Source of the DNA: Sinomonas sp. P10A9
Lineage (GTDB): Bacteria > Actinomycetota > Actinomycetes > Actinomycetales > Micrococcaceae
Reading direction: 5' to 3'
Assembly: GCF_041022165.1 (NCBI RefSeq)
Contig: NZ_CP163302.1
Span: 3,410,001-3,474,000 of the forward strand
Length of the DNA: 64,000 bases
Position 1 is the first letter of the stretch. The number at the start of each line of letters is the position of its first letter. The notes below the pieces were generated by a model. It was not told the origin of the DNA and ran no database searches. It was given only the letters and a program-made list of their open reading frames with translations. Shown in pieces: positions 10,369 to 14,415 of the stretch. Made by a program: the position numbers and the translations under genes.

Positions 10369-10569
10369 TCAGAAGCCAGCGGCGTTGACCTTCATGGGAT
10401 CAGGCCAGTTGCCGATGGCGACGGGAGCCTGCATCGGATCGGGCCAGTTGCCGATCGCGCTCACCTTCATGGGGTCGGGCCAGTTGCCGATCGCCGTCGG
10501 GGTGCCGGCAACGCCGCTGATGGCAAGGGCTCCCCCGAGCGCGACGGTGGCAATCAGTTTCTTCAGCAT
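10369..10569 (-). CDS. exported small precursor with three AIGNWPDPM repeats (candidate signal peptide precursor)
   Basis: A 66-aa protein starting MLKKLIATVALGG, a Sec signal peptide with Lys-rich n-region and a hydrophobic core ending near SGVAG. The rest is three copies of the nonapeptide AIGNWPDPM, separated by KVS and QAPV and ended by KVNAAGF. The DNA copies differ at four codons (Ala1, Pro6, Asp7, Pro8), always at third positions, so the peptide is conserved while the DNA drifted. ATG 10569 is preferred because AAAGGA sits 7 nt upstream; ATG 10575 is only 1 nt away from it. A consensus-like promoter lies upstream and a hairpin downstream. The gene is divergent from an XRE/TPR regulator. 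By analogy with Gram-positive pheromone precursors it may release a nonapeptide signal; that is inference. A multi-core modified peptide is the alternative, but no modifying enzyme is adjacent. Confidence 0.85.
   Translation of the reverse strand: MLKKLIATVALGGALAISGVAGTPTAIGNWPDPMKVSAIGNWPDPMQAPVAIGNWPDPMKVNAAGF
10393..10494 (-). repeat. three coding repeats for AIGNWPDPM
   Basis: Repeat units at 10468-10494, 10432-10458 and 10393-10419, 27 nt each, with starts 36 and 39 nt apart. Substitutions between copies are all synonymous. Confidence 0.95.
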
Positions 10570-10641
10570 CTTCATGTCCTTTGAGAGTCGGTCCCGATGT
10601 CTTGCACGGGACGGGGTGCGTCCGCTGGGGCAGAGCGTGCT

Positions 10642-10669
10642 TTGTCATGATTGACATGCCCAGTAAAAT
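10642..10669 (+). promoter_or_regulatory. promoter of the XRE/TPR regulator, overlapping the peptide promoter
   Basis: TTGTCA (10642-10647), a 16-bp spacer and TAAAAT (10664-10669) on the plus strand. Its -10 shares four base pairs (10664-10667) with the -10 of the opposing peptide promoter, so the two promoters should exclude each other. The predicted leader to the GTG start is about 110 nt. Confidence 0.6.
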
Positions 10670-10730
10670 GGGTTCCACATGGCCTGTCAAGGAAGACCGT
10701 CGACCACAGACGCTCCATGATGGACATGAC
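10644..10730. promoter_or_regulatory. two operator-like direct repeats flanking the divergent promoters
   Basis: Copies at 10644-10660 and 10714-10730 share the core CATGAT(T/G)GACATG and 13 of 17 bases, 70 bp apart (about seven turns). The first also contains TGTCA-TGAT-TGACA and covers the predicted peptide transcription start. The second lies upstream of the peptide -35. They are likely binding sites for the adjacent regulator (inference). Confidence 0.55.
10662..10690 (-). promoter_or_regulatory. promoter of the repeat-peptide gene
   Basis: On the minus strand: TTGACA (10690-10685), a 17-bp spacer and TTTACT (10667-10662). Perfect -35, fair -10. Transcription would start near 10655, about 85 nt before the ATG. 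Confidence 0.7.
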
Positions 10731-10742
10731 GCATGCGTAAAA

Positions 10743-10766
10743 GCCCGGGTTCACGATGTCCCGGGC
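10743..10766 (+). other. hairpin in the regulator leader
   Basis: GCCCGGG (10743-10749) pairs perfectly with CCCGGGC (10760-10766) over a 10-nt loop, ending 7 nt before the AGGAGG of the regulator. It could affect translation start; it is not followed by a U tract. Confidence 0.5.
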
Positions 10767-10784
10767 GGGGGCCAGGAGGTCAGA

Positions 10785-12068
10785 GTGGGCAGTGGATTCG
10801 GCGAAAAGCTGCGGGCCGAGAGGCTGGATCGCGGGCTGACACAGGCGGAGCTGGGCAAGGACCTGTACTCACCCAGCTACATCTCCCTGCTCGAGACCGG
10901 ACGCCGCGAACCGACCGCCGAGGTCATCCAAGAACTCGCCCGTCGCCTCCAGCTGGCGCCCAAGGCCCTCGAGGCCTGGAGCCAGCCGGTGAGCGCCAAT
11001 GATGCCGAGTACGTGCTCGCAGGGCTCTACGCCCGCCAGGCGTGGGACCTGCGTGACTACGCCCAGGCGGCCAGCCACGCCGCGACCGCAGCACAGTTCG
11101 CGCTCGAGGGCAAGAACAACAGCGCGTGGTGGAACATGACGTACATGCAGGCCGAGTGCCTCATGAAGCAGGGCGAGCTCGCCGAATGCCAGCGGATCGT
11201 CCAGCATCTGCTCGAGCATCCCATCGTGGCGGAATCAGCCGGGCTTGCCGTGCGTGCGCGGCAGATGCTCGCTGCGGTGTGCCACGGTCTCGGCCAACTC
11301 GGAGCGGCGGTCGAGCATGCACGTGAGGCCGTGCGCCTCGGTGCCCAGCTTCCCGCGGGATCCACCATCTACATCGGCGCCCTCCGCGCCCTCATTGCAG
11401 CCCTCGCAGAAAGCGGCCGCCTCGAGGAGGCCTGGGACCAATGCCGCATCCTCGCGACGCTCATCGACGAGGACTCGATGGGACAGCTCGCGGGCGAGGT
11501 CGAATGGGTGATCGGCAACGTCGCATTCATGCGCGCCGACTACGAGGAGGGTGTCAAGCACCACGAACGGGCCGCCAAGCTCCTCTCCCCAGCCAACGAC
11601 ATCGAGCTGTGGGCACGGTTCAACAAGGCCTCCGCGGCAGTGAGGCTCTCGGGCGGGATCGTGGAGCCCGAGACGCTCGCCGCGATCGAACGCGCCGAGC
11701 TCGCCCTGAGCATTGTGGGCGGATCCCGTTCCGAGCAGCTCGAGGTGCATTTCATCCGCGCACGGTGGCTCTATCTCAACGGCCAGATCCCCGAAGCCAT
11801 TGAGCTGCTTCGCACGATCCACGCCGAGAAGGGCGCGCTGGGACGCCACACCGCAGGCGAGGTCGCGCTGCTCTACGGTCGCGCACTCAAGGCACTCGGC
11901 GAGGACGAGCAAGCCCTCGAACTCCTCAAGGACGCGCGCGAGCAGTTCAGCTACGCGGGCGCTGCCGACAAGGTCCAGCAGACCATGGACGCGATCCTCG
12001 AGATCCGTCTGGCCGCCCAGCGCGCCGAAAGGACGGCGGAGCAGGGCACCGCGACCCACAGAAGCTGA
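10785..12068 (+). CDS. XRE-family HTH / TPR regulator (RRNPP-like)
   Basis: A 427-aa protein. Residues ~5-60 form an XRE/HTH_3 domain (GLTQAELGKDLYSPSYIS followed by LETGRREP). The rest, ~75-420, is a series of tetratricopeptide-like helical pairs such as YARQAWDLRDYAQAASHA and GRALKALGEDEQALELL. This architecture is that of Rgg, PlcR, PrgX, NprR and related receptors, which bind an imported oligopeptide in the TPR groove and change DNA binding. Start GTG 10785 is chosen because AGGAGG lies 5 nt upstream; the open frame extends further left without support. The divergent neighbour encodes an exported repeat peptide, the obvious candidate ligand. The architecture is seen directly; the pairing is inferred. 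No oligopeptide permease is in the window. Confidence 0.85.
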   Translation: MGSGFGEKLRAERLDRGLTQAELGKDLYSPSYISLLETGRREPTAEVIQELARRLQLAPKALEAWSQPVSANDAEYVLAGLYARQAWDLRDYAQAASHAATAAQFALEGKNNSAWWNMTYMQAECLMKQGELAECQRIVQHLLEHPIVAESAGLAVRARQMLAAVCHGLGQLGAAVEHAREAVRLGAQLPAGSTIYIGALRALIAALAESGRLEEAWDQCRILATLIDEDSMGQLAGEVEWVIGNVAFMRADYEEGVKHHERAAKLLSPANDIELWARFNKASAAVRLSGGIVEPETLAAIERAELALSIVGGSRSEQLEVHFIRARWLYLNGQIPEAIELLRTIHAEKGALGRHTAGEVALLYGRALKALGEDEQALELLKDAREQFSYAGAADKVQQTMDAILEIRLAAQRAERTAEQGTATHRS

Positions 12069-12106: not shown

Positions 12107-13099
12107 TCAGGCGAACGTTCGGCCGGTGAGCCGCTCGTAGGCCTCGACGTAGCGGGCGCGGGTGCGCTCAACGACGTCGGTGGGCAGTGCGGGCGGCTCC
12201 CCGCCCGCGGCGCGGTCCCAGCCGGACTCGGCCGAGGTCAGCCAGTCACGGACAAACTGCTTGTCGAACGAGGGCTGGGCGTGCCCGGGCTCCCACGTCT
12301 CAACGTCCCAGAAGCGCGACGAGTCGGGCGTGAGCACCTCGTCGCCCAGGGTGATGTAGCCGGTGGTCGAATCGACGCCGAACTCGACCTTCGTGTCCGC
12401 GAGGATGATGCCGCGCGCTCGCGCGATCCCCTCGGCCTCGCGGTACAGCTCGAGCGTCAGGTCCCGCAGCTGGGCGGCGGCGTCGTCCCCCACCATGCCG
12501 GTGACGTCCTCGTAGGTGATGTTCTCGTCGTGCTCGCCGTACTCCGCCTTGGCGGAGGGCGTGAAGATCGCCTCGGGCAGACGCGAGCCGTCCACGAGCC
12601 CCTCGGGCAGCGGGATCTCGCACACGGTACCCGACTCCCGGTACTCGGCGAGTCCGGAACCGGTGAGGTAGCCGCGGGCGATGCACTCGACGGGGTACAT
12701 CTCGAGGCGGCGGCAGATCATGGCACGGCCCGCGACCTCGGCGGGGACACCGTCGTCGACCGTCGAACCGAGCACGTGGTTCGGCACGTTGAGCTGCTCG
12801 AACCACCACAGGCTCAGCTGGGTGAGGATGCGGCCCTTGTCCGGGATGGTGCTGGAGAGGACGTAGTCGTAGGCGGAGATGCGGTCGCTCGCGACGACGA
12901 GGACTTCACTGGACTCGCCGGGCTCGGCCTCAGCGGGCTCGTAGAGGTCACGGACCTTGCCTGAGTAGATGTGCCGCCACCCCGGCAGCTCGACGGCCTC
13001 GGCCTGGTACCCCTTGCTGCCGACGTTCTCGAGGTTACTGACGTTGCCGACGTTACTGACGTTCTCGAGGTTACCGACGTTCTCGACGCTGTCCATCAT
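12107..13099 (-). CDS. purC: phosphoribosylaminoimidazole-succinocarboxamide synthase
   Basis: SAICAR synthase joins aspartate to CAIR with ATP in de novo purine synthesis. The core starts at GWRHIYSGKVRDLYE and contains SDRISAYDYVL and the conserved EFGVDSTTG region. The ATG overlaps the purD stop (ATGA), so purD and purC are one coupled operon. That supports the upstream start and with it an unusual ~30-residue N-terminal tail made of NVGNLENV-like repeats, encoded by GAGGTTACTGACGTT-type ~18-nt DNA repeats (13020-13085). Such a tail is not usual for the family, which normally begins close to the LPGW motif. The gene converges with the XRE/TPR regulator, 38 bp apart. Confidence 0.95.
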   Translation of the reverse strand: MMDSVENVGNLENVSNVGNVSNLENVGSKGYQAEAVELPGWRHIYSGKVRDLYEPAEAEPGESSEVLVVASDRISAYDYVLSSTIPDKGRILTQLSLWWFEQLNVPNHVLGSTVDDGVPAEVAGRAMICRRLEMYPVECIARGYLTGSGLAEYRESGTVCEIPLPEGLVDGSRLPEAIFTPSAKAEYGEHDENITYEDVTGMVGDDAAAQLRDLTLELYREAEGIARARGIILADTKVEFGVDSTTGYITLGDEVLTPDSSRFWDVETWEPGHAQPSFDKQFVRDWLTSAESGWDRAAGGEPPALPTDVVERTRARYVEAYERLTGRTFA

Positions 13100-14415
13100 T
13101 CTGCTCCCGTTCCGGCGCTGTTCCTGATTCCCGGCAGAATGCCCGGCAGACTGATCTCGCCGCGCGCGGCCTTGGCGGCGATGTCCCGCCTGTACTGCCC
13201 GCCGTCGAGCTCAATGAGTCCGATGCCCGCGTAGGCCCGCTCGCGTGCCTGGGTCAGGTCATCTCCGAGGCCCACGACGGCGAGGACCCGCCCACCCGCG
13301 GAGAGCACCTTCCCGTCGTCGGACAGCGCGGTGCCCGCGTGCAGGACGTGGACGCCGTCGAGGGCGTTGGCCTTCTTGAGCCCCCGGATGCGGTCCCCGG
13401 TGCGCGGGACGTCGGGGTAGTTGTGGGACGCGAGGACGACGGCGACGGCGGTCTCCGGCGCCCACCGCAGGTCCTCGGCGTGGTCGAGACGGCCGGTCGC
13501 AGCGGCGAGGAGGAGCCCCCCGAGGGGTGTCCTGAGCCGGGCCAGGACGGCCTGGGTCTCGGGATCGCCGAAGCGGGCGTTGAACTCGATCACGCGCGTG
13601 CCGCGGGAGGTCAGCGCGAGCCCGCAGTACAGCACACCGACAAACGGCGTGCCGCGCTGCGCCATCGCGTCGATGGTTGGCTTGGCGACCCGCTCGATCA
13701 CCTCGTCGACGAGGCCCGCCGGCGCCCACTCGAGCGGGCTGTAGGCGCCCATGCCGCCGGTGTTGGGGCCCTCGTCATTGTCGAAGATGCGCTTGAAGTC
13801 CTGCGCGGGCGCAAGCGGCACCACGGTGCGGCCGTCCGAGAGGACGAAGAGGGAGACTTCCGGGCCGTCGAGGAATTCCTCGATCACCACCGTCCCGCCC
13901 GCGCCGAAGCAGGCCTGGGCGTGCGCGAGGGCCGCGTCGCGGTCCGAGGTCACGACGACGCCCTTGCCGGCCGCGAGCCCGTCATCCTTGACCACGTAAG
14001 GGGCACCGAAGGCATCGAGGGCATCCGCGGCCTCCTCTGCGTTCTCGGCGACACGGGCCATCGCGGTGGGCACGCCGGCCTCGGCCATGACCTGCTTCGC
14101 GAACGCCTTCGACGCCTCGAGCTGTGCCGCCGCCCTGCTCGGGCCGAACACGGGAATCCCGGCCGCGCGGACGGCGTCGGACACTCCAGCCGCAAGCGGC
14201 GCCTCCGGACCGACCACCACGAGGTCCACCCCCAGCGCCGTGGCGAGCGCGGTGACCGCCTCCGGATCGCTCGCGTTGACTGCATGGGTGGGAACCAGCT
14301 GGGCGATGCCGGCGTTGCCCGGGGCCGCATGCACCTCGGTGACGCCCGGATCGGCGAGGAGGGAGCGGACGAGAGCGTGTTCGCGGCCGCCGGGGCCGAT
14401 CACGAGAACCTTCAC
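13096..14415 (-). CDS. purD: phosphoribosylamine-glycine ligase
   Basis: GAR synthetase, an ATP-grasp enzyme that joins glycine to phosphoribosylamine. It begins VKVLVIGPGGREHAL, and the ATP-grasp region includes YVVKDDGLAAGKGVVV and GPEVSLFVLSDG; metal-binding residues follow in IEFNARFGDPETQ. GTG 14415 is chosen because the family normally starts at this motif, although the frame is open further upstream. The length, 439 aa, is typical. It is the first gene of the purD-purC operon and divergent from the asparaginase gene with 83 bp between. Confidence 0.96.
   Translation of the reverse strand: MKVLVIGPGGREHALVRSLLADPGVTEVHAAPGNAGIAQLVPTHAVNASDPEAVTALATALGVDLVVVGPEAPLAAGVSDAVRAAGIPVFGPSRAAAQLEASKAFAKQVMAEAGVPTAMARVAENAEEAADALDAFGAPYVVKDDGLAAGKGVVVTSDRDAALAHAQACFGAGGTVVIEEFLDGPEVSLFVLSDGRTVVPLAPAQDFKRIFDNDEGPNTGGMGAYSPLEWAPAGLVDEVIERVAKPTIDAMAQRGTPFVGVLYCGLALTSRGTRVIEFNARFGDPETQAVLARLRTPLGGLLLAAATGRLDHAEDLRWAPETAVAVVLASHNYPDVPRTGDRIRGLKKANALDGVHVLHAGTALSDDGKVLSAGGRVLAVVGLGDDLTQARERAYAGIGLIELDGGQYRRDIAAKAARGEISLPGILPGIRNSAGTGAE

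Follow-up and report, generated by a model that had tools for sequence, protein, structure and literature searches.

A candidate peptide-pheromone locus of the RRNPP working type in Sinomonas and related Micrococcaceae

A stretch of 64,000 nucleotides from Sinomonas sp. P10A9 (NZ_CP163302.1, positions 3,410,001 to 3,474,000; the window) carries a small gene for a precursor with three copies of the nonapeptide AIGNWPDPM and, divergent from it, a gene for a helix-turn-helix (HTH) tetratricopeptide repeat (TPR) protein. We consider it likely that this locus is a peptide-pheromone system of the RRNPP (Rap, Rgg, NprR, PlcR, PrgX) working type in Actinomycetota. An earlier note on this DNA had read the pair as a quorum-sensing peptide and its receptor, and as far as sequence tells this is supported by (i) co-occurrence of the two genes; (ii) a conserved peptide core; (iii) peptide variants that run along the receptor tree and (iv) the RRNPP signature. 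Beyond that note, and pointing in the same direction, are changed motifs in other genera with the same divergent gene order, TPR paralogues with peptides of their own, and leaderless open reading frames (ORFs) on chromosomes and in phages.

The two genes and the element between them

The propeptide gene lies on the reverse strand at 10369..10569 when read from its second ATG (10567-10569, MLKK...), the start used by most precursor relatives, and encodes 66 residues; the ATG at 10573-10575 would give 68. Over 10369-10575 the product reads MKMLKKLIATVALGGALAISGVAGTPT-AIGNWPDPM-KVS-AIGNWPDPM-QAPV-AIGNWPDPM-KVNAAGF. A putative Sec-type N-terminal signal region (10495..10575, reverse strand), lysine-rich then hydrophobic and assigned from the sequence and a hydropathy rule, precedes the three copies (10468..10494, 10432..10458 and 10393..10419, all reverse strand). 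The three 27-mers differ solely at synonymous third positions, a count that is conditioned on identical peptides and so reflects copy age, not selection by itself. The earlier note's description of an exported 66-residue precursor with synonymous-only differences among its repeats, divergent from a 427-residue HTH-TPR gene, is thereby confirmed (66-68 residues, export by hydropathy). Tandem Repeats Finder detects the repeat as a 36 bp unit in 2.8 copies. Across the copies compared, variation falls in the linkers and spares the core. The locus of Sinomonas sp. ASV486 (L117; here and below L labels are loci, g labels genera, f labels families and G391 a genome) is nearly identical. In the source genome, a single contig of 4.29 Mb, a search with the precursor returned itself and weak matches from E 0.009 upward, and a search with the receptor returned only the receptor.

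Some precursors of ribosomally synthesised and post-translationally modified peptides hold several cores, nearly identical repeats joined by short linkers, so the repeats here could be read as cores of a modified natural product. Among the window ORFs between 5000 and 18000 no modifying enzyme was seen by eye, and three distinct phage ORFs consist of nothing but M-R-IGNWPDPM, with no leader; we regard this origin as highly improbable.

The putative receptor (10785..12068, forward strand) has 427 residues. Its HTH domain (residues 5-64; 10797..10976, forward strand) matches Pfam HTH_3 (5.5e-11) and HTH_31, and it is to this part that profile similarity to PlcR is confined (residues 4-57, E 3e-5). 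Several Pfam TPR models match the remainder. The AlphaFold2 model, built from 54 sequences, has a mean predicted local distance difference test score of 89.6 and places eight TPR-like helix pairs over residues 71-391 (10995..11957, forward strand), which would form a putative peptide groove; the count of eight hairpins is our own reading of the model helices. Across 25 chosen receptors, with the helix register set by hand, positions 2, 5, 9, 12 and 13 of the TPR A helices had a mean entropy of 0.83 vs 1.19 for helix positions (p 0.0035, 10,000 draws), and R84, N117, E209, W241, N245, F248, K281, A284 and E320 were invariant. Packing positions of helix A are about as conserved (0.86), hence the conservation of the groove is supportive only.

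Roughly 210 bp separate the starts of the two genes in the window. Between them lies a conserved element, TTGACA..AGTAAAAT..TGTCAAG (10651..10691), with inverted TTGACA/TGTCAA arms and the consensus TTGACA-(N)-TTGTAAAaT-(N)-TGTCAAG. A loose pattern for its left part matches 96 of 118 receptor upstream regions, at least one of these matches (L213) being spurious. The source genome holds one exact copy of the left part; a second site there, with two mismatches, was not counted. Toward the receptor, a scan found one sigma-70-like promoter match (TTGTCA-16-TAAAAT; 10642..10669, forward strand; shuffle mean 0.1), a consensus match only, and toward the peptide gene TTGACA-17-TTTACT can be read by eye. 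From its sequence the element is probably a promoter plus operator.

Distribution and the pairing of receptor with peptide

The earlier note had suggested looking for co-occurrence of NWPDP-repeat ORFs and the regulator in actinobacterial genomes; it proved wide in Micrococcaceae, with the core conserved as a unit. A precursor search gave 28 proteins, all containing IGNWPDPM, the named ones from Sinomonas and Arthrobacter. At the DNA level the GNWPDPM pattern occurs in 73 of 395 Micrococcaceae genomes (2 of 32 genera) and the reversed pattern in none, which together with the pairing control below argues that its occurrence is not chance. The receptor (E up to 1e-30) is present in 214 of the 395 sampled genomes and 17 of the 32 genera. 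All 15 Sinomonas genomes possess the receptor and exact GNWPDPM, with the peptide adjoining the receptor by coordinates in each. In the Arthrobacter group (g9) the receptor is found in 77/77 genomes and exact GNWPDPM sites in 58; the remaining 19 have GNWPDPA (12), GNWPDPV (3), GNWPNPM (2), GNWPYPM (1) or GNWPYPV (1), each adjoining the receptor.

As a control on pairing, a rule for exported Trp-Pro peptides found one adjacent and divergent in 88 of 116 receptor loci and three elsewhere in 1.2 million strand-bases, two of these three being the adjacent peptides of L164 and L165, where the receptor start is misplaced. By discovery route, 54 of 56 peptide-found loci pass the rule, as do 34 of 60 receptor-found loci; on reading, 40 of the 60 have a peptide, the six additional ones (L164, L165, L172, L174, L209, L211) carrying a Trp-Pro peptide, in L209 and L211 as one C-terminal copy with no clear signal. 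Loci L010-L124 were located via the peptide motif and are therefore unable to test the direction from receptor to peptide. The receptor-first loci, L155-L214 (60) and L215-L234 (20), were picked to cover clades and second copies and are not a random sample. Thirteen exported-precursor loci and a set of 3-kb loci whose sequence ends before the receptor could be read (L013, L016, L018, L034, L046, L047, L051, L056, L057, L058, L083, L084, L115 and the 3-kb loci L125-L154) were left out of the counts.

The core itself varies between genera. Divergent exported peptides carry VGNWPDPS/A/T/F, KFVGNWPDAV, RVGNWPDAS, VGIWPNS, TGNWPNV, PGNWPDS, PGIWPDS, VWIWPDS or VGEWPH; a V-G-D/N-WPH core is present in six to eight copies per precursor, and one genus has several copies of VGNWPDRFYS (L230). 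Among 260 copies picked by [G/W]-x-Trp-Pro, a search that fixes the Trp-Pro dipeptide, 258 begin with Gly, the second position is occupied by N, D, I, E or W, and in 73 the stop codon comes directly after the seventh residue. On the sequences compared, peptide variants track the receptor tree. A minimum of 16 changes accounts for the peptide labels of 93 rows, and of 4 for peptide presence or absence over 113 rows; five loci were labelled by hand, and short or duplicate receptors (including L165, L213, L214 and L009) were left out. To look for coevolution of peptide and groove, receptors of two GNWPDPA clades (11), of GNWPDPV (3) and of the N/Y forms (4) were set against 50 g9 receptors that pair with GNWPDPM. 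Five columns turn up in both of the GNWPDPA clades and none is clearly decisive, in a comparison uncorrected for kinship. A second site in G391 that looked like GNWPYP would have meant correlated change at two loci; it was rejected because, on our reading of the translation, it falls within a RibD/DHFR-like ORF.

Receptor relatives of about 350 residues adjoin exported peptides of their own: IGWWPN, VGWWPH, RVGYWPF, VNNWPG, VNNWPY, IDDWPH, KVGNWPG (twice), VNWWPD (twice), VGWWPN and MGNWPH. Scans of seven such relatives gave no HTH model match and weak TPR-type matches in four. Paralogues with no recognisable HTH, each with a divergent exported Trp-Pro peptide, occur at L213, L214, L221, L222, L224-L228, L231 and L234, L221 having two paralogue-peptide pairs in succession.

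The class-wide scan was positive in 6 of 394 genomes, every one of them from f1 or f17. Within f17, another family of the same order, relatives of the L216 receptor occur in 5 of 149 genomes. Two of the five have VGGSWPT repeats and in three no such peptide was seen; a further f17 genome has SDTWPA (L218).

A search of a viral structure library returned general TPR and repeat proteins, and NCBIfam models of RRNPP subfamilies gave no match to the receptor up to E 1. Two results weigh against a peptide-pheromone system, a fold match that is not specific and receptor loci with no adjacent peptide. The receptor fold resembles NprR, Rap and PlcR, but also many other TPR proteins. No adjacent peptide was found at 20 of the 60 receptor-first loci, namely ten g24 receptors, eight Sinomonas paralogues, L208 and L212, and several of these loci also have no intergenic element. 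In the second set of 20, a peptide was read in 12, L229 is doubtful and seven have none, including the HTH-bearing g31/g32 receptors L223, L232 and L233. The earlier note had named relatives that keep the regulator with no repeat peptide as evidence against its proposal; some such relatives do exist at these loci, which tells in part against the proposal. The ten g24 receptors (L187-L193, L206, L207, L210), with the element mostly missing as well, form a natural loss series.

Among receptor loci of at least 5 kb, purC is present in 53 of 56 and purD in 45 of 56, which gives the appearance of an old chromosomal locus. This bears on the proposal that the precursor yields an extracellular effector (a bacteriocin, or a cell-surface or matrix peptide) whose gene the HTH-TPR protein merely regulates with no binding of the peptide. 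An export signal, repeats and no adjacent import partner would suit an effector, and regulators are common beside effector genes. The recurring neighbours are purC and purD, the variant motifs remain beside the receptor, and the leaderless chromosomal and near-minimal phage ORFs described below are easiest to understand if the peptide works within the cell; an effector is, in our judgement, unlikely. The N-terminus of purC in the window contains 18-bp tandem repeats that give a VENVGNLENVSNVGNV-type stretch (13022-13086).

Leaderless versions on chromosomes and in phages

Elsewhere in Arthrobacter genomes, leaderless ORFs contain IGNWPDPM one to four times (L035, L044, L050, L059, L061, L070, L076, L091, L103, L111 and others), and several also carry an IGWWP motif (e.g. 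L035, L050, L061, L070). The union of both motifs in a single ORF suggests that both are ligands encountered in the cytoplasm. Neighbours of these ORFs are varied (glycosyltransferase, UDP-glucose dehydrogenase, MarR, ammonium transporter, DUF2382). At 18 of 28 leaderless loci the stop of a Pro-rich protein ending DPGSSPD, DPGSRPD or DPGSTPD lies 102-189 nt before the motif, and the intergenic element was found at none of the 28. A leaderless ORF with two VGNWPDPM (L024:2728-2925) was observed on a contig binned as Candidatus Saccharimonadia (GC content 0.48), which may be misbinned.

In IMG/VR, GNWPDPM is coded on ten contigs. On eight of these the ORF ends exactly at Met-stop, five being distinct after removal of identical or half-shared contigs. 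Four of these five are tiny ORFs with no leader, three reading MRIGNWPDPM and one MMSTIGNWPDPM. They lie at L316:5129-5161, L319:1970-2002, L322:2202-2234 and, on the reverse strand, L318 about 2415-2447. In the fifth (L325) the motif follows a hydrophobic stretch. Shine-Dalgarno-like sequences stand upstream of mini-ORF starts, for example AGGAGGCGCCATG in L316. L316, L319 and L322 also carry tRNA genes, and phage protein families are present on L316, L318 and L322 (exonuclease, DNA polymerase exonuclease subunit, terminase large subunit). Arthrobacter phages share short matching stretches with L316 and L322, as do phages of other actinobacteria, many via tRNA genes; an Arthrobacter-type host is thus likely, not proven.

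No receptor relative was found in 50,697 phage records at E 1e-5, nor in IMG/VR with six short patterns, a scan that detects close relatives only, so a distant receptor is possible. Widened phage patterns gave only chance-like ORFs apart from L330, a viral contig with a possible mini-ORF MMNDGNWPDPS (14340-14363); this variant is seen beside g19 receptors and may be chance. In the stretches read of the Arthrobacter phages Anekin, Persistence, Isolde, Hestia and Faja there was no GNWPDP ORF, one chance-like frame in Isolde apart. We infer that the phage ORFs encode a phage-made ligand for the host receptor.

Leaderless ORFs and a predicted cytoplasmic receptor would also fit a small autoregulatory or toxin-like protein that works solely within the cell that makes it, its export being incidental. 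A precursor passing the export rule is kept at 88 of 116 receptor loci, however, and its core is kept while its linkers vary; we give this explanation little credence, less even than the extracellular effector. Leaderless, near-minimal ORFs are best explained by a cytoplasmic receptor.

We propose that the precursor is exported by Sec, as hydropathy predicts, and would be cleaved outside the cell to short peptides with Met at the C-terminus, which may be re-imported via oligopeptide permeases. The source genome has six SBP_bac_5 proteins, compatible with peptide import but generic. The peptide would then bind the TPR groove of the HTH-TPR protein, and the bound form would alter transcription at the intergenic element, including that of its own gene and of the gene for the propeptide (autoregulation). 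The leaderless versions on phages and chromosomes would supply ligand made directly in the cytoplasm. With rather less assurance, we lean towards a broader picture: a Trp-Pro pheromone language of Micrococcaceae with its own radiation of receptors (HTH-TPR and TPR-only, each with an exported peptide), leaderless and sometimes two-signal versions that would act in the cytoplasm, and phage ORFs of 10-12 residues (e.g. MRIGNWPDPM) that may set the host receptor from inside with no receptor of their own.

Relation to known peptide signalling systems

If the proposal is true, the locus, a pair kept beside purC, would offer a first way into quorum sensing by linear peptides in Sinomonas, Arthrobacter and their relatives. 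Specificity could be read straight from the many natural peptide-receptor pairs, and phages apparently using the host pheromone would be a sharp, testable case of signal hijack. A literature search found no actinobacterial RRNPP system; most subscription journals and preprints lay outside it and a prior description is possible. NWPDP appeared in one unrelated sensor paper only.

RRNPP signalling is described for Firmicutes in PMC9765709, and the large survey in PMC10075063 scanned Firmicutes and viruses only. That survey lists five features of the signature, all of which the locus shows, export by hydropathy only: (i) a propeptide of 10-100 residues, here 66-68; (ii) Sec secretion, here a lysine-rich start and hydrophobic core by hydropathy; (iii) a receptor of 250-500 residues, here 427; (iv) peptide-recognising TPRs, here present by Pfam and the AlphaFold2 model, recognition being putative; and (v) direct gene neighbourhood, here divergent and found by rule at 88/116 loci.

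Like the RRNPP(A) systems (Rap-Phr, NprR-NprX, PlcR-PapR, Rgg/ComR, PrgX, AimR), the locus has a small Sec-type propeptide beside a TPR receptor of 250-500 residues, here with an HTH. Unlike those of Firmicutes, it belongs to another phylum and has a Trp-Pro core (mostly Gly-x-Trp-Pro), which related precursors repeat as many as eight times. With Phr3T and Phr105 it shares an exported propeptide that holds more than one pheromone copy; in these, according to PMC11343458, extracellular proteases free the copies. Identical repeats are a minority there and pseudo-repeats common, whereas ours are mostly exact amino-acid copies with synonymous drift. A tiny ORF that equals the mature signal with no leader recalls the leaderless communication peptides of RopB, as described in PMC10518010. 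In contrast to the RopB peptides, the leaderless forms here, on phages or elsewhere in the chromosome, come in addition to an exported precursor of the same pheromone. Arbitrium (AimP-AimR) is likewise a phage-encoded peptide of RRNPP type, in which the phage encodes both peptide and receptor. Here no receptor relative was found in the phage collections searched, and the phage peptide equals the presumed signal of the host.
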